Origin: a virus | Length of the DNA stretch: 21,506 bases | Virus record (IMG/VR): IMGVR_UViG_3300027754_000501 | Span: 1-21,506 of that record | Reading direction: 5' to 3' (one strand) | Shown: positions 4,423-18,085 of the stretch, piece after piece | Layout: every line of letters starts with the position of its first letter | Position numbering within the stretch: the first letter of the stretch is position 1 | The notes under the pieces: model-generated | What the model saw: only the letters and a program-made list of their open reading frames with translations | Database searches by the model: none | Told to the model about the DNA's origin: nothing | Translations under genes and position numbers: made by a program

Positions 4423-4842
4423 TTAAACTACTGTTAATGTAATTGCGCCTGCTGAAGTTCCTAATCCAATAACATACCAATTAACGCCATCACAATTTAA
4501 TTGAACAAAATCTCCAATTGTGTCTGCACTTGCTGAAAATGTAATTGTGTTTTCGTTTGCACCCGGTACGTTAACTGAATTTACAATTACTCCACCTTGA
4601 ATAACATTTGAAGCCGCTTTAATTGTCCATGCAGTTGTTGCGAATAACGCTTGTACTGTAAAACGGAAATTTAAACCTGCTGAAGTTGCTACTGCTGGTA
4701 AAGTAATTTGTGCGCCTGCTGCTGCATTCAAAGAATAATGTCTTCCTGAATCCGCCGCAGTTAATGTAGTTGCTGAACTTATTACTGAAGTTTGAACTAA
4801 TTGACGTAATTCGTCATTTGAAATCGATACTAATGTTGCCAT
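4423..4842 (-). CDS. Capsid decoration / head fibre-like protein
   Basis: The 139-residue protein has a short N-terminal helix (ELRQLVQTSVIS) and then a small beta domain: TTLTAADSGRHYSLNAAAGA, ITLPAV, LNFRFTVQ, FATTAWTIKAA, and GDFVQLNCDGVNWYVIG. This pattern recurs in small phage proteins that lie beside capsid genes and coat the head surface or form short head fibres. It sits between scaffold and capsid genes, 18-20 nt from each, so it is probably co-expressed with the shell in quantity. There is no signal peptide or membrane segment. The decoration role comes from the pattern and position; a fibre-tip role elsewhere on the virion is possible. Confidence 0.65.
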   Translation of the reverse strand: MATLVSISNDELRQLVQTSVISSATTLTAADSGRHYSLNAAAGAQITLPAVATSAGLNFRFTVQALFATTAWTIKAASNVIQGGVIVNSVNVPGANENTITFSASADTIGDFVQLNCDGVNWYVIGLGTSAGAITLTVV

Positions 4843-4862
4843 TTTTTTTTATTTTAAAATTA

Positions 4863-7096: not shown

Positions 7097-9268
7097 TTAT
7101 AAACTCGAATTTTGTGCCCTATTTCTATCTAACGCCTGTTGGCTTGTTACTTGACCGCTAACTACGTAGGCCATTGTTGGTTGTTGTTGTAATTGCGCTA
7201 ATTGATTAATTCCGTTATTTCCCACCGTGTTAAATTGTGGCGTCATTGTCGCACCTGCACCCGTCCCACCACCACCACCAAGCCCACCACCTGAAGGCGC
7301 TGATCCACCACCCAACGAACTCAAAGCTTTTGCCGTTGCTGCAATATTTGCCGCTATTCCTATTCCGGTTGAAATATTATTTAAAGCTATTACCGGCGCG
7401 GCAGCTGCTCCACTTGTTGCGATTGCTTGCGGTGTTGCTAATGCTCCGGCGTTTGCTAATTTATTTGCTATAATCATTTTTGCAATACCAATTGCACTTT
7501 CTGCAATAACCGCCGCTTTTTGAACTCCTTTACTTTTTTCAAAAACATTTTTAATTAATTGAACGCCTTGTAACGCTACTTCAATTCCTTGATTTTGAAT
7601 AGCTTGTTTTTGTTCCGCTACGGCTTTTGCGTTTGCTATTTCTGCATCCGCTGCGATTTTATCCGCTGCCGCTTTTTCTAATTTGTATTTAGTGTTTATA
7701 GCTGCGGAATCTTTATTGAATTTGTCCGTTAATTCAGTTTGTAATATTGTGTTGTTTAATGCAGCTTCGTATTCTTTATCGTATGCAATTTGTAAATCTA
7801 AAAGGTCTTGTTCTTGTTGTGTGTTTTTTAGTTTTTGTAACGCGTACCATTGTTCGTCTTGTAATTTAATTTTTTCTTCAGTTGCTTTTGTTGCCGCGTC
7901 TTTGTCTAATTTATCATATTTATCGTTAATTGCTTTTTCATCAAATCTTTTACTATCAACTGCTTGCGCATTTAATTTAGCTAACTTATTTACTTTGTCT
8001 TTGTCGCCTGCTAATTCCTTTTCAGCGTCTTCTTTTTTGTATTTGTATTGAAGTTCTAACGCTGCCAATTCTTTTGCGCGCCCCTCTTCCATTAAGCGCA
8101 CTTTTTCTTCTTCAGTTCGTCGCGTAATATCTATTTGTTGTACTGCTGCTGAAGACGCGCTTTCAGTTGCTGCTGCGTTGTTTTGTTTCATTTGCAATAA
8201 AAAACCGTCCCTATCGCTTTGCATTTGTTTTAACCCTTGCTTTGCTTCTGCAATTGTGGCCGCGCTTTCTGCTTTAACTGCCGCAGGGTCAAATAATAAT
8301 TTACTCCCCGCGCTCGCGCCCGCTTTTGTTATTTCTGTTAATACTTCGTTAAAATCCATTGCGACAATTTTACTATACCCTAATAATTCAGCGCCTTTAT
8401 TAATTGTAGCAATAACTAAATCTAACGGTTTCATAAATATACGAAGCATAAACACGCCCATTTCGAGCGCGCCTTGTATTATCATTTTAGTTATTTTTTG
8501 ATTTCTTTCAGCTGCTTCAATTTCTAATTTTGCAACTGTTTCTAATCCTTTTATTCTAATTGCTTCGTCTTCAATAGACGTATTCATTTTATTAATTCGG
8601 ATTTGTAAAATTTCCTTTTCACTTTTACCCTGAAGTCTTAAAGCGTTTTCTTCTAATTGCGCGTTTTCATAAGATTTTTTTGAACTTGCCGCGTGTTTTT
8701 CTGCGTCTACATTTAACTTTTTTTGTTCTGCTGAAACCCCACTAACGGCCGCTTTTATATCATCCCAATAAGCTACAACCGCACCTAACGCAATAACTAA
8801 CAAACCAATTCCCGTTGCCGCTATTCCCGTTTTAATTCCACTTAACGCACTTTTTGCGGCTGCTCCTAATTGTTTAAAAGAATCCTTTGCTTCCATTAAA
8901 CCGTTAATGCCTTGCGTTAAAGCCATTACGCTTTGTACTTTTAAAAGGGCTTCTTCTACTTTGTCACTTTCTATACCTAATAAAGCCATTCCACCCGTAA
9001 ACGCTTGGAATCCATTCATTACACCGTTAACCGCGCCCTCAACCGCTTTAAATTTTGCATCAGGATTAAACGCGTCTACTAAATCTTTACTAAACCCTAT
9101 TTGATCTTTTAATTGCGCTGCTGCTTTTGCCGCGTTAATTGCTTGTTTACTTGTTTCACCGTATTGCGCGCTAACTTTTTGAAGTTCCGCAACCGCTTCT
9201 TTATACTGCGATTTTAAACTTTTGCTATTGTCTTTTATTTCTAATTCAACCGTTCTTTTTTCTGCCAT
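7097..9268 (-). CDS. Tail tape measure protein
   Basis: This 723-residue protein has the usual tape measure architecture. The N-terminal 60 residues and the middle (about 370-560) are long, charged coiled coils rich in Ala, Lys, Glu and Gln. A hydrophobic helix lies at about 147-167 (TGIAATGIGLLVIALGAVVA). The C-terminal part has IAESAIGIAKMIIANK, then Ala-rich hydrophobic stretches and a Gly-rich segment (about 658-680). Tape measures fix tail length and pass into the host envelope at infection. At roughly 1.5 angstrom per residue the length suggests a tail near 110 nm (inference). The ATG lies inside the last 28 nt of the upstream 54-aa ORF. It is followed directly by the prohead protease instead of the distal tail genes expected in lambda-like order. 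Confidence 0.9.
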   Translation of the reverse strand: MAEKRTVELEIKDNSKSLKSQYKEAVAELQKVSAQYGETSKQAINAAKAAAQLKDQIGFSKDLVDAFNPDAKFKAVEGAVNGVMNGFQAFTGGMALLGIESDKVEEALLKVQSVMALTQGINGLMEAKDSFKQLGAAAKSALSGIKTGIAATGIGLLVIALGAVVAYWDDIKAAVSGVSAEQKKLNVDAEKHAASSKKSYENAQLEENALRLQGKSEKEILQIRINKMNTSIEDEAIRIKGLETVAKLEIEAAERNQKITKMIIQGALEMGVFMLRIFMKPLDLVIATINKGAELLGYSKIVAMDFNEVLTEITKAGASAGSKLLFDPAAVKAESAATIAEAKQGLKQMQSDRDGFLLQMKQNNAAATESASSAAVQQIDITRRTEEEKVRLMEEGRAKELAALELQYKYKKEDAEKELAGDKDKVNKLAKLNAQAVDSKRFDEKAINDKYDKLDKDAATKATEEKIKLQDEQWYALQKLKNTQQEQDLLDLQIAYDKEYEAALNNTILQTELTDKFNKDSAAINTKYKLEKAAADKIAADAEIANAKAVAEQKQAIQNQGIEVALQGVQLIKNVFEKSKGVQKAAVIAESAIGIAKMIIANKLANAGALATPQAIATSGAAAAPVIALNNISTGIGIAANIAATAKALSSLGGGSAPSGGGLGGGGGTGAGATMTPQFNTVGNNGINQLAQLQQQPTMAYVVSGQVTSQQALDRNRAQNSSL

Positions 9269-13320: not shown

Positions 13321-14072
13321 TAATCGTAAATTACATCTAACGTTAAACTTCCATTACAAATTGAATTGTAAAGGTTTGTTGGAATATCTAAACGAACCCT
13401 TCCATCTCCATTGTCGGAATAAGTACCGTAATTTAAAAAACAAGCGTTATTTTGTACGGGTGGATCTGCATTAAACATAGCCACTAAATCAGTTATGTTA
13501 TTTTCATTAATTCCGTAACAAACTGCTACTTGGTTACCGTCGCATAAATAACGAATAGAGTTCATAGGTGTGGTAAAATCTATTATTTGACTGTAAACCG
13601 CTTGCGTTGTAATGCTATCGCAAATTGTCATTGTGTTAGCTACTAAAACATCAAACGTCATTGTCCAACCCGCTAAATAGTTTTCAAATCGTTCCGCAAA
13701 TGGTTCGCACGTTGGGTTTCCATCCACTACAAAATTATCTGTATACAAATCACCGCGCCGTAACATTTCGTACAACCTGTTTAAAATTGCTAACTGCGTA
13801 TTTAAAACATTTTGTTCGTTATCATTTCCTATAAATAATTCAGTTACTTCGTCTTTTGAAATGTCCACAATATCCATAGCCAATAAACTAATATTGAAAC
13901 GAATTACATTAGATTCAAAAACCGCCGAATTAACCATAATATGCGCTAACGGAAATATTGTTTGTTTGCCTAAATCAACTTGAAATATATCACCGGTTGT
14001 AACCGTGTTTACGATTGCATCATTATCCAAATGATTTTTTAACGTGTCAATTATTGTGTAAAAGTTAGCCAT
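13320..14072 (-). CDS. Probable tail terminator / tail completion protein
   Basis: The 250-residue protein begins MANFYTIIDTLKNHLDNDA, then NTVTTGDIFQVDLGKQTIFP and LAHIMVNSAVFESNVIRFNI, ending its first half with SLLAMDIVDISKDE. This N-terminal region of about 150 residues has the mixed helix and strand arrangement of tail terminator proteins and is one I remember from flavobacterial phages as a conserved structural protein. The C-terminal 100 residues are a beta-rich extension with three cysteines (NPTCEPFAERF, TMTICDSITT, NACFLNYG). It overlaps the frameshifted chaperone end by 8 nt. A terminator caps the tail tube when the tape measure length is reached. The role is inferred from order and fold; a neck role cannot be excluded. 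Confidence 0.55.
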   Translation of the reverse strand: MANFYTIIDTLKNHLDNDAIVNTVTTGDIFQVDLGKQTIFPLAHIMVNSAVFESNVIRFNISLLAMDIVDISKDEVTELFIGNDNEQNVLNTQLAILNRLYEMLRRGDLYTDNFVVDGNPTCEPFAERFENYLAGWTMTFDVLVANTMTICDSITTQAVYSQIIDFTTPMNSIRYLCDGNQVAVCYGINENNITDLVAMFNADPPVQNNACFLNYGTYSDNGDGRVRLDIPTNLYNSICNGSLTLDVIYD

Positions 14073-14340
14073 GTTTTATTCTTTTGTTTAATTCGCGTTG
14101 TTCGATTTCTGTTTTTTGTCGTTCATAAGTAAGAAAGGTAAGACACTTTCGAAGTCCAAGCCTTGTAACTTCATCAAATTTGGTAACATCTCCTTGAGCA
14201 ACTGCATAGATTGAGTTATACCAACCCCACTGCTTTCCAAACTGCGTTCGTTCGCTGAAGTCATTAGTTCCGGATTCTTCAGTATCTCCATCTCCAAATA
14301 AGAAAGAGAATTGTTTACTAAGTCGTTTCCTAAAGTCCAA
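14065..14340 (-). CDS. Tail assembly chaperone, -1 frameshift extension (GT-like part)
   Basis: This 91-codon frame has no ATG at its beginning; its first codon (TTG at 14340) lies at the end of a run of nine T. It is in the -1 frame relative to the chaperone at 14088-14828, and a one-base slip on T TTT TTT joins them exactly: VFF is followed by LDFRKRLSKQ. The fusion would have about 254 residues. The extension reads like a real protein, with FGKQWGWYNSIYAVAQGDVT followed by KFDEVTRLGLRKCLTFLTYE, a pattern I know from tail chaperone extensions of Bacteroidetes phages, and a charged C-terminus. In lambda the GT extension recruits tail tube subunits to the tape measure. It overlaps the next gene by 8 nt. 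I list it as a frameshift product, not a separate gene. Confidence 0.75.
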   Translation of the reverse strand: MDFRKRLSKQFSFLFGDGDTEESGTNDFSERTQFGKQWGWYNSIYAVAQGDVTKFDEVTRLGLRKCLTFLTYERQKTEIEQRELNKRIKHG

Positions 14341-14828
14341 AAAAAAACACTTGCTGCCATTACTACGTCTAAAGGTGCAAATTTCATTAGGTCGCTAAAT
14401 TCAGCTGTTCCCGTGTATTGTATTATTTCGTATTTATCTTTACTTCGTGTTTTGATCGGCCTGTACATTACTGCCATCGCTTTGTGGAAATTATCCACGC
14501 TGGTAATATTACTTTCTAAATCTATATATTCACCAAATGTTATTTCGTCCATATTTGGAATAAATCCGAACTCCATGTTTTGAATTTTAAACGTAGGTTG
14601 AAACTTTGGTTTTTCCTGAAACAATTTATTAAAATGTAACGCCAAATCTTTAACGTCACTCCATTTTATTTTTATTACTTCTTTTAAATTTAAACCGCAA
14701 AATATTTCTATTGTTTTTTCTGCAATAAATTCTTGATCGTTTGAATTGTTAATTACCTTCATGAATTTTTGATAATTCTGCAAAGGTATTTCAGAAAGTT
14801 TTGTAGGCACGTAGATTTCCGTTTTCAT
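14088..14828 (-). CDS. Tail assembly chaperone (G-like), with -1 frameshift site
   Basis: The 246-residue product begins with ATG at 14828 (MKTEIYVPTKLSEIPLQNYQ) and contains FGEYIDLESNITSVDNFHKA and MYRPIKTRSKDKYEI, typical of phage tail assembly chaperones, which hold the tape measure and tail tube during assembly. Codon 163 ends at 14340 in a run of nine T (14339-14347 on the complementary strand). The slippery heptamer T TTT TTT is in the right phase for a -1 slip into the frame at 14065-14340. Unlike lambda G, whose zero frame stops soon after the slip site, this zero frame continues for another 83 residues (WTLGNDLVNNSLSYLEMEIL and on), so about 250 nt are coded in two frames. It lies between a 57-aa gene and the tail terminator. 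Confidence 0.75.
   Translation of the reverse strand: MKTEIYVPTKLSEIPLQNYQKFMKVINNSNDQEFIAEKTIEIFCGLNLKEVIKIKWSDVKDLALHFNKLFQEKPKFQPTFKIQNMEFGFIPNMDEITFGEYIDLESNITSVDNFHKAMAVMYRPIKTRSKDKYEIIQYTGTAEFSDLMKFAPLDVVMAASVFFWTLGNDLVNNSLSYLEMEILKNPELMTSANERSLESSGVGITQSMQLLKEMLPNLMKLQGLDFESVLPFLLMNDKKQKSNNAN
14341..14348 (-). other. Programmed -1 ribosomal frameshift site (poly-T slippery sequence)
   Basis: In the zero frame the codons are GTT TTT TTT TGG, starting at 14348. The seven bases T TTT TTT fit the X XXY YYZ rule with full re-pairing after a -1 slip. The new frame then reads TTG GAC TTT and stays open for 91 codons. I see no strong stem directly downstream, so the long U-run itself may be enough. 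Confidence 0.75.
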
Positions 14829-14838
14829 ATTGTTATAA

Positions 14839-15012
14839 CTATTTTTTTTGTTTATTGTAGTAAGTAAGTGAAATTGAATAGGCTTCGTTTAACATTACTA
14901 CGTGTTTTCTAATATTCATTGGATCGTCAAATATTATTTTAATCCGTTTACCGGTTTTATCTTGTATGTATTGCTCAACTGTGCGCACCATTACCGGTAG
15001 TTCGTCTGTCAT
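14839..15012 (-). CDS. Small protein between terminase and tail chaperone (57 aa)
   Basis: An ATG at 15012 opens a frame of 57 codons to a TAG at 14839-14841, beginning MTDELPVMVRTVEQYIQDKT and continuing GKRIKIIFDDPMNIRKHVVM. It fills nearly the whole gap between the large terminase stop (15022) and the chaperone start (14828), with 9-10 nt on each side, as expected of a real gene in a tightly packed operon. The composition is ordinary: mixed charged and hydrophobic, one probable amphipathic helix and no membrane segment or cysteine. I do not recognise the family. Position alone suggests a role in head completion or tail assembly. Confidence 0.65.
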   Translation of the reverse strand: MTDELPVMVRTVEQYIQDKTGKRIKIIFDDPMNIRKHVVMLNEAYSISLTYYNKQKK

Positions 15013-16515: not shown

Positions 16516-17541
16516 TTACAAAGATAGTTTATCAAACCATTGATTGTAAATTTCGGTTGCAATTTGTGCGGTCATTACCGGGGGAACACTCATTCCGATT
16601 AAATACATTGGTCGTAATTCTTTAAAATTATAATCCAATGGGTAGCTACCTATTAAACAAACCTCTTTATTGCTTAATTTTCTTTTTTCTGTTGAATGAA
16701 AAAAACCTTCGCATTGATTTGCTGTAATTGTGTTACAAACTTCATTATCAGCTAATCGCATACTTGAAAAATTACTTCCATTTGAAACAGTTGCAAATGA
16801 TTTTCCTTGTTTGCATATTTCCCACATTTTTGCCCTTTGCCCGTTTATACCCTCTTTTAATCCTGTTTCTTTTATTTGTTTAAATAAAATTGCCTCTTCA
16901 TTAAACTTTAATTCTAATTTAGGAAAATTCAAATCATTTCTTTGGCAAATAAAAAATACCCTTTCCCTTTTTTGCGGAACGCCCATTGATGCAGCATTTA
17001 ATAAAAATAATTGAACTTTATATCCGGCCGCTTCAAATTCTTTTTTTATTCGGTGTACGTAGGCTTTTGCATTTCCCTGAATTAATCCTTTTACGTTTTC
17101 AGCGATAACAACTTTTGGCTGTAATTTTTTAGCTAATTTAATATAATCAAAAAATAAATCGTCTAATCTTTGTTCAGCTTGCCCCTCTCTAAATACTTTT
17201 GTTTTGCCCCAATCTTTTTCACGGTTACCAGCCATTGAAAAACTGCTACATGGCGGCGATCCGTCTAAAATATCAAGGTTGTATAAATCTTTTGGAAAAT
17301 CAGTTCTATTTGCAAAATCTCGAATATCCTCAACAAATAAATATTTCGGATTGTGATTTGTTTTGTAAACATCAGCAATTGGCGGATCTATTTCAACGCC
17401 GCCCAAATGTTCAAAACCTGCTAATTTATAACCCATTGTGGACCCACCGCCACAAATAAACGTGCCAAATACTTTTAATCCGTTACTTTTTGGGTAACCG
17501 TCTTTTAAGTGCCATTTATACGCGAATTTATGTTTATTCAT
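16516..17541 (-). CDS. DNA (cytosine-5-)-methyltransferase
   Basis: The 341-residue enzyme shows the ordered C5-methyltransferase motifs: motif I in modified form (FGTFICGGGSTMGYKLAGFE, 25-44) with GGVEID as the SAM-binding acidic end (47-52), motif IV DGSPPCSSFSMAG with catalytic Cys98, motif VI VIAENVKGL (145-153), motif VIII VPQKRERVFFI (188-198), and motif X GMSVPP (316-321) with Ser where most have Asn. The target recognition region (about 200-300) is short, as in phage solitary enzymes. No restriction endonuclease gene lies beside it, so it is probably an orphan that marks phage DNA against host restriction. It overlaps the ParB-like gene by 8 nt and precedes the terminase genes, so methylation and packaging may be expressed together. 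The specificity cannot be read. Confidence 0.93.
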   Translation of the reverse strand: MNKHKFAYKWHLKDGYPKSNGLKVFGTFICGGGSTMGYKLAGFEHLGGVEIDPPIADVYKTNHNPKYLFVEDIRDFANRTDFPKDLYNLDILDGSPPCSSFSMAGNREKDWGKTKVFREGQAEQRLDDLFFDYIKLAKKLQPKVVIAENVKGLIQGNAKAYVHRIKKEFEAAGYKVQLFLLNAASMGVPQKRERVFFICQRNDLNFPKLELKFNEEAILFKQIKETGLKEGINGQRAKMWEICKQGKSFATVSNGSNFSSMRLADNEVCNTITANQCEGFFHSTEKRKLSNKEVCLIGSYPLDYNFKELRPMYLIGMSVPPVMTAQIATEIYNQWFDKLSL

Positions 17542-18085
17542 TGCCTAATAATTTCCAAATTGCTTGCTCCGGTGTTGATGCAATTTTACTTAATTGCTCC
17601 CTAACTAAATTATAATCGTCTTCAGTATATTTTAATTTTAAAATCATTTCTGAATCTAATAAATCAATATCAATTTCCTCGTTTTTTCCTGAATAGTCTA
17701 ATTGATTTGTTTCGTAGTTAGGAATATTTAATCCCCAATCGTCTAATTTTTCAGCATCCCACTCATTCGCTAACTGATCCCAATCCCACTCGCCAAAACC
17801 AACGTTATCCTTGATTAAAAATTCCGCTTTTTGTTCCTCGTTCCATTCGTCTGCGATTATAACCGGTATTTCGGTGTATTTTAACTCGTTTAAGGCTTTT
17901 AAACGCATATTACCACCCAATACGCAATATTTACCGTCAACGTCTGTAAAAACGATTAGAGGGCGTTTATTTAGCATATCAGGAAACTCCTTTATTGAAG
18001 TAATTAACTTTTGAAATTTGCCGTCTTTTATTACGCGCGGGTTTTTTGGGTTTGCTTTAACCTGTGATATATTTACTTTAATCAT
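17534..18085 (-). CDS. ParB/Srx-like N-terminal domain protein
   Basis: The 183-residue protein has a ParB-like N-terminal fold: KVNISQVKANPKNPRVI (3-19), then PLIVFTDVDGKYCVLGGNMR with the GGNMR box (57-61), LKALNELKYTEIPVIIADEW, and the EEQKAEFLIKDNVGFGEWDW helix (83-102). ParB-like proteins of this type (the modern superfamily has CTP-binding, nuclease and other uses) often sit next to phage methyltransferases and terminases. No helix-turn-helix or C-terminal dimer domain of true partition proteins is evident. It overlaps the methyltransferase by 8 nt and the upstream gene by 8 nt, so the three are a translation-coupled set. A role in DNA modification or genome processing is inference; chromosome partition is unlikely. 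Confidence 0.8.
   Translation of the reverse strand: MIKVNISQVKANPKNPRVIKDGKFQKLITSIKEFPDMLNKRPLIVFTDVDGKYCVLGGNMRLKALNELKYTEIPVIIADEWNEEQKAEFLIKDNVGFGEWDWDQLANEWDAEKLDDWGLNIPNYETNQLDYSGKNEEIDIDLLDSEMILKLKYTEDDYNLVREQLSKIASTPEQAIWKLLGNE

Follow-up and report, generated by a model that had tools for sequence, protein, structure and literature searches.

Genes and features at the locus

We call the sequence analyzed here the window; it is an IMG/VR virus record of 21.5 kb (21,506 nucleotides) whose genes are arranged as terS/terL, the gene under study (the slip gene), a tail-completion-like gene and a tape-measure-like gene, with head genes, named by inspection, after them. The slip gene lies closely behind terL, and the tape-measure-like gene (7097-9268) follows after four further genes. 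A 57-aa ORF between terL and the slip gene (14839-15012, minus strand) is probably a small phage gene; upstream of terS, adjoining genes that look from their sequence like ones for a DNA cytosine methyltransferase and ParB occupy 16516-18085 on the minus strand.

Within the slip gene, a run of nine T's (T9) is followed by ∼250 nt that are open in both the zero frame and the minus-1 frame (Table 1). The TTT TTT after GTT is also common to both products, giving 163 shared residues in all, and the minus-1 ORF (14340-14065) ends within the first codons of the next gene (ATGGCTAAC). The original prediction for this stretch had placed T9 in GTT TTT TTT TGG, followed by an open minus-1 frame of 91 codons and a zero frame running 83 residues past the slip; we confirmed these coordinates (the latter at 14339-14091) as well as the predicted product sizes, 246 aa for the zero frame and 254 aa (163 + 91) for the minus-1 frame. 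The window has a second nine-base run at 4842-4850, which is A9 on the gene strand, sits at the start codon of a 139-aa ORF, and is likely an A-rich leader.

Table 1. Features of the slip gene in the window
Feature	Position	Strand	Description
Zero-frame ORF	14828-14088	minus	246 aa; contains GTT TTT TTT TGG; ATG at 14828
N-terminal region common to both products	14346..14828	minus	zero frame, 161 codons including GTT
Slippery run T9 (GTT TTT TTT TGG)	14339..14347	minus	
Zero-frame C-terminal tail	14091..14339	minus	83 codons; stop at 14088-14090
Minus-1-frame extension	14068..14340	minus	91 codons, KQWGWY motif; stop at 14065-14067
Overlap of minus-1 stop and next-gene start (ATGGCTAA)	14065..14072	minus	close relatives arranged likewise

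The run and both frames are conserved in relatives

Three kinds of query (the zero-frame protein, distant family members, and the extension in the minus-1 frame) were run against viral contigs and yielded ∼270 relative loci, among them cases in which overlapping fragments come from a single contig; Nonlabens phage P12024S contributed a relative as well. Among these, 266 loci were readable across the slip; 140 are unique and form 32 clusters when grouped at <75% extension identity. The 266 loci all have T9 or T10 at the same place (T9 in 124 unique loci, T10 in 16), together with an open upstream zero frame and a minus-1 extension, which is usually 73 to 91 aa long and bears an FGKKWGWY-type or KWGWY-type motif across the family. 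The zero-frame tail is open for 25 to 83 codons in nearly all relatives: 83 in the window's clade and 76 to 83, 66, 48 to 67, 36, and 25 in other clades. The original prediction had named conservation of the T-run and of both frames in relatives as one of its checks, and on both counts the relatives bear it out; none of the readable loci lacks the run, and stops are not scattered through either frame.

Two loci depart from this pattern, and metagenomic contigs such as these may contain errors. L179 (2001-2273) is the sole close relative with a zero-frame stop only 19 codons after T9, its minus-1 frame being intact; it is either a natural test case or a sequencing error. In L077, the minus-1 frame from 2990 lacks a stop for at least 200 codons and thereby enters the next gene, which reflects an indel, a fusion, or an assembly error.

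Profile searches of Bacteroidota genomes recovered very divergent members (L283, L285, L286, and L287), again with T9 and a minus-1 extension. Across distant lineages, conservation is higher for the extension than for the zero-frame tail. Carriers are few among the Bacteroidota genomes surveyed, and searches of genome contigs gave one Bacteroidetes MAG. One Bacteroidota genome locus, L282 (minus strand), apparently has the N-terminal region and the extension joined in one frame (247 aa), with a weak match to the extension (E 8e-4), and BFVD proteins of 226 to 267 aa match the models of the N-terminal region and the extension alike; together, these observations suggest that the slip-gene protein naturally has the extension as a C-terminal domain. 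"Fused" pattern matches among the relatives contained only short extension ORFs and were rejected. Flavobacterium phage 6H was also rejected as a family member, having neither T9 nor a clean minus-1 extension; its gp10 (L278 9900-10927) is a weak fold relative with a long open minus-1 frame after its stop. The slip gene belongs to an uncharacterized gene family in phages of Bacteroidota.

Proposed slippage by the ribosome or by RNA polymerase

It is probable, given the conserved frames and the selection described below, that one gene yields two proteins through a one-base slip at T9 and that both overlapping C-termini are functional and selected. Slippage itself, its level, and the choice between ribosome and RNA polymerase we infer from the sequences. 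The heptamer T TTT TTT, of the X XXY YYZ type in the zero frame, is classic for minus-1 ribosomal slippage and is present in all clusters. A downstream stimulatory RNA structure is common, though not obligatory, at minus-1 frameshift sites. None was found here: downstream folding across the 32 clusters gave a mean z of +0.25 relative to shuffled sequences, with 0/32 clusters below −2, no stimulator up- or downstream of the slip rose above shuffles (mean z +0.2 to +0.25; window z 0.66), and Rfam returned no match.

A variant of the two-protein explanation, which differs in the slip mechanism only, holds that RNA polymerase slips at T9, making mRNAs with a U added or lost, and that both proteins are translated from the mixed mRNA; we put it somewhat short of an even chance. 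A tandem ribosomal slip would require just T TTT TTT, whereas the run always has at least nine T's, with T6 to T8 never seen at the slip site; elsewhere in the relatives' contigs, we counted 85 T7 and 10 T8 runs versus 9 of T9 and longer. Six of the 36 lineages carry the run displaced by a single base relative to the zero frame (xxT TTT TTT TTx: GGT TTT TTT TTG, TAT TTT TTT TTA, GCT TTT TTT TTC, GCT TTT TTT TTG, and ACT TTT TTT TTG), and in these, too, it comprises nine T's. A lost 5′ T is thus always paired with a 3′ T, an outcome with a probability of C(11,6)/C(36,6) = 2.4e-4 given the 3′ T frequency, although the lineages are not fully independent and some flanking T's are held by amino acid constraint. 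Nine is also the length from which selection against A/T runs, on which RNA polymerase slips, is evident in many bacterial genomes, and an A8 run was termed nonslippery (PMC1088944). The lack of a downstream structure fits slippage by the polymerase, as does the third frame, which is shut within 8 codons in 31/32 clusters, albeit little above the permutation expectation of 26.3. On the other hand, a long U-run permits the ribosome to slip in several registers, so the length preference fits either machine. Given that the run is never shorter than nine, that shifted runs are still nine, and that no stimulator was found, we hold slippage by RNA polymerase and by the ribosome to be about equally likely on this sequence evidence. 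The more specific proposal, of a large unannotated tail-chaperone-like family in Bacteroidota phages combining RNA-polymerase slippage at nine or more T's with a long stretch encoding two selected C-termini, is one that we advance tentatively and with less than even confidence.

Purifying selection acts on both frames in the overlap

Selection was examined in 31 independent pairs of extant sequences drawn from 63 nonredundant family members that belong to the window's clade or to clades sister to it; each possible change was classed by its effect in both frames, with the +1 frame of neighboring coding regions as the control. In the overlap, the rate of changes that alter the zero-frame protein but are silent for the minus-1 protein is 0.060 per site versus 0.204 upstream and 0.260 downstream, a 3.4-fold suppression, and as a fraction of the upstream synonymous rate, the overlap rate comes to 0.29 (bootstrap 95%, 0.18 to 0.43). 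Over the 65.4 overlap sites at which a silent change would introduce a stop into the zero frame, 0 such changes occurred, where ∼17 are expected; the same class occurs at 0.259 and 0.290 per site in the control genes. The difference between overlap and control holds at kappa values of 1, 3, and 6. The minus-1 frame is constrained as well (dNN/dSN, 0.31; 0.12 to 0.63). Thus, purifying selection acts on both frames in the overlap, and the dual coding in this family is real.

The constraint on the zero frame ends where that frame ends. In the L028/L206 group, whose zero-frame stop is at codon 36, the silent-in-minus-1 rate is 0.056 to 0.078 in codons 1 to 26, 0.185 in codons 26 to 35, and 0.26 to 0.27 past the stop; in the L240 group (stop at 64/65), it is 0.03 to 0.12 inside and 0.20 after, and in the L226 group (stop at 56), 0.06 to 0.11 inside and 0.29 after. 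The L224 and L246 groups are small, with too few changes to tell where constraint ends. When the five groups are pooled, the rate is 0.076 before the zero-frame stop and 0.222 after it (p = 7e-8). The openness of the zero frame points the same way: in the window alone, a frame open this long arises in 5% of codon permutations that keep the minus-1 amino acids fixed and in 0.04% of codon-usage draws, and combining the 32 clusters gives Fisher p-values of 1e-9 (permutation) and 4e-21 (codon usage), which are somewhat optimistic since the clusters are related.

These data bear on the reading that only the minus-1 frame makes a real product past the slip, the zero frame being an accidentally open by-product. 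The better conservation of the extension between distant lineages is in keeping with it, as are the variable zero-frame end point and the short tails of L179 and of Nonlabens phage P12024S, but an accidental frame explains neither the 3.4-fold suppression and the absence of new zero-frame stops nor a constraint that follows the stop position and a permutation p-value of 1e-9. We consider this reading unlikely overall and largely refuted for the first ∼30 to 60 codons; it may hold near the end of the 83-codon tail, the last third of which is the least constrained and may be dispensable.

Less likely again is that the low synonymous rate marks an RNA element, such as a frameshift stimulator or other signal, and no second protein. 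The silent-in-minus-1 rate is indeed lowest directly past the slip (0.021 in codons 1 to 14), as such an element would have it; yet fold energies are not below those of shuffled sequences, and among changes that alter the minus-1 product, those silent in the zero frame (NS, 0.035) are about twice as frequent as those altering both (NN, 0.019). Moreover, constraint extends up to ∼200 nt and ends at each lineage's own zero-frame stop, which disfavors an RNA element because such an element would not track a stop codon. That the T-run is a DNA phase-variation switch or an assembly error, leaving one broken frame, is scarcely credible: homopolymers are error-prone and mutable, but no run length fuses the N-terminal region with the extension in any of the 266 readable loci from many assemblies, and an error would not yield dual-frame selection.

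Predicted structures and a model for the two products

In the model of the zero-frame product, the N-terminal region has a pLDDT of mostly 74 to 92, a long helix continues to about residue 184, and the pLDDT falls below 50 from residue 193, so that the far half of the tail, which is mildly constrained, is predicted to be disordered. In the model of the minus-1 extension, residues 17 to 27 form a linker of low confidence and residues 27 to 90 form helices, mostly with a pLDDT of ∼90. Constraint followed frame by frame along the overlap agrees with these models. The zero tail is most constrained in codons 1 to 27; in codons 14 to 27, changes silent in the zero frame are the commonest (0.091 versus 0.038 silent in minus-1), and in codons 27 to 40, where the extension helices begin, changes silent in the minus-1 frame are (0.082 versus 0.011 silent in zero).

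The N-terminal region matches PHROG 32199 (E 2.9e-15), a PHROG of unknown function; Pfam, PHROG, and NCBIfam scans of both ends assigned no function. A PDB fold search gave no reliable match, although the protein may have the known chaperone fold. Two weak fold matches in BFVD are annotated as a "tape-measure chaperone" of Caulobacter phage Seuss (E 0.32) and a "tail assembly chaperone protein" of ctCpR1 (E 0.61, prob 0.60). At the sequence level, the slip architecture is of the G/GT type, with T9 and both frames open and selected across 32 clusters; in the window gene order, the slip gene does not lie between the major tail protein and tape-measure genes. For the GT-type tail chaperone of the original prediction, the architecture speaks in favor, and the distance from the tape-measure gene and the weakness of the fold matches (E 0.3 to 0.6) speak against. 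Architecture and operon context make a tail-assembly chaperone role of the lambda G/GT type the most likely one by analogy.

The two-protein explanation builds on direct observations, namely, the slip site, the two open frames, their conservation, and the selection on both. Most transcripts or ribosomes would go straight through T9 and give the 246-aa form, which we assume by analogy with lambda to be the major product, and a one-base slip in a minority would produce the 254-aa form, which ends in a helical domain with the KWGWY motif. The two forms would have the common 163-residue N-terminal domain and functional C-termini written in the same ∼250 nt, with the frames partly alternating: the zero frame would dominate codons 14 to 27 after the slip, opposite the flexible minus-1 linker, and the minus-1 frame thereafter. 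Their most likely function would be that of tail-assembly chaperones working at a fixed ratio, as in lambda G/GT. The predicted disorder and mild constraint of the distal zero tail, the end point varying from 25 to 83 codons, and L179 are points against this explanation, as is the lack of an RNA stimulator in the folding analysis.

Relative to the literature searched, four things are new: the family itself, selection on both frames, a selected zone that tracks where the zero frame stops, and a run that never drops below nine T's. The usual picture of a frameshift in a tail-chaperone gene is that of a short zero-frame end to which an extension is added. In the present case, a phage family overlays two selected C-termini, making the short form a protein with its own tail, beyond a mere truncation. 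The family offers a large natural data set on dual coding in double-stranded DNA phages, with frames that split the work between helix and linker, and whether ribosome or RNA polymerase sets the ratio of the forms becomes a testable question. The annotation of hundreds of phage contigs would be corrected, since the extension has likely been missed in them, as it was in Nonlabens phage P12024S.

Comparison with known systems

Slippage-prone runs of A or U that give several products per gene are known from Thermus dnaX and Shigella mxiE/spa13 (PMC1088944, PMC5009743); these are not phage tail genes, and slippage was measured there, whereas it is suggested by sequence here. Among tail genes, the original prediction had likened the locus to lambda G/GT, and the likeness stands at the sequence level: in both, a minus-1 slip accounts for a pair of proteins that are alike at the N-terminus and end differently. 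Unlike the slip gene, lambda slips at GGGAAAG, ∼6 codons before the G stop, has no T-run, and adjoins the tape-measure gene H. P2 E/E+E′ is also a minus-1 extension of a tail gene at a T-run (T6G), but its zero-frame stop comes ∼7 codons after the slip; HK97 gp13 and its frameshift product likewise form a minus-1 extension of a tail gene, with an overlap of at most 17 codons.

A true homologue is found in gp38 of Nonlabens phages P12024S/L (Inhavirus), where T9 occupies the equivalent site and the minus-1 extension bears a KWSWY motif; unlike in the window, the zero frame stops 25 codons after the slip. In the P12024S record (L018 3989-4683), the slip gene is split into the hypothetical proteins gp38 and gp39, and the fusion is unannotated.

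The closest precedent is SPP1 17.5/17.5*, described as an analogue of G/GT (PMC6316719). Its gp17.5 (173 aa) and gp17.5* (297 aa) have 112 residues in common and arise by a putative minus-1 slip at the U-run UUUUUUC. Compared by these published figures, SPP1 differs from the window family in having T6 plus C rather than T9 or T10 and an extension of ∼185 aa. It resembles the window gene in its long double-coded stretch, the zero frame continuing for 61 codons past the slip (PMC6316719); thus, the long zero-frame tail that had been taken to set the slip gene apart does so with respect to lambda but is a property that it shares with SPP1.
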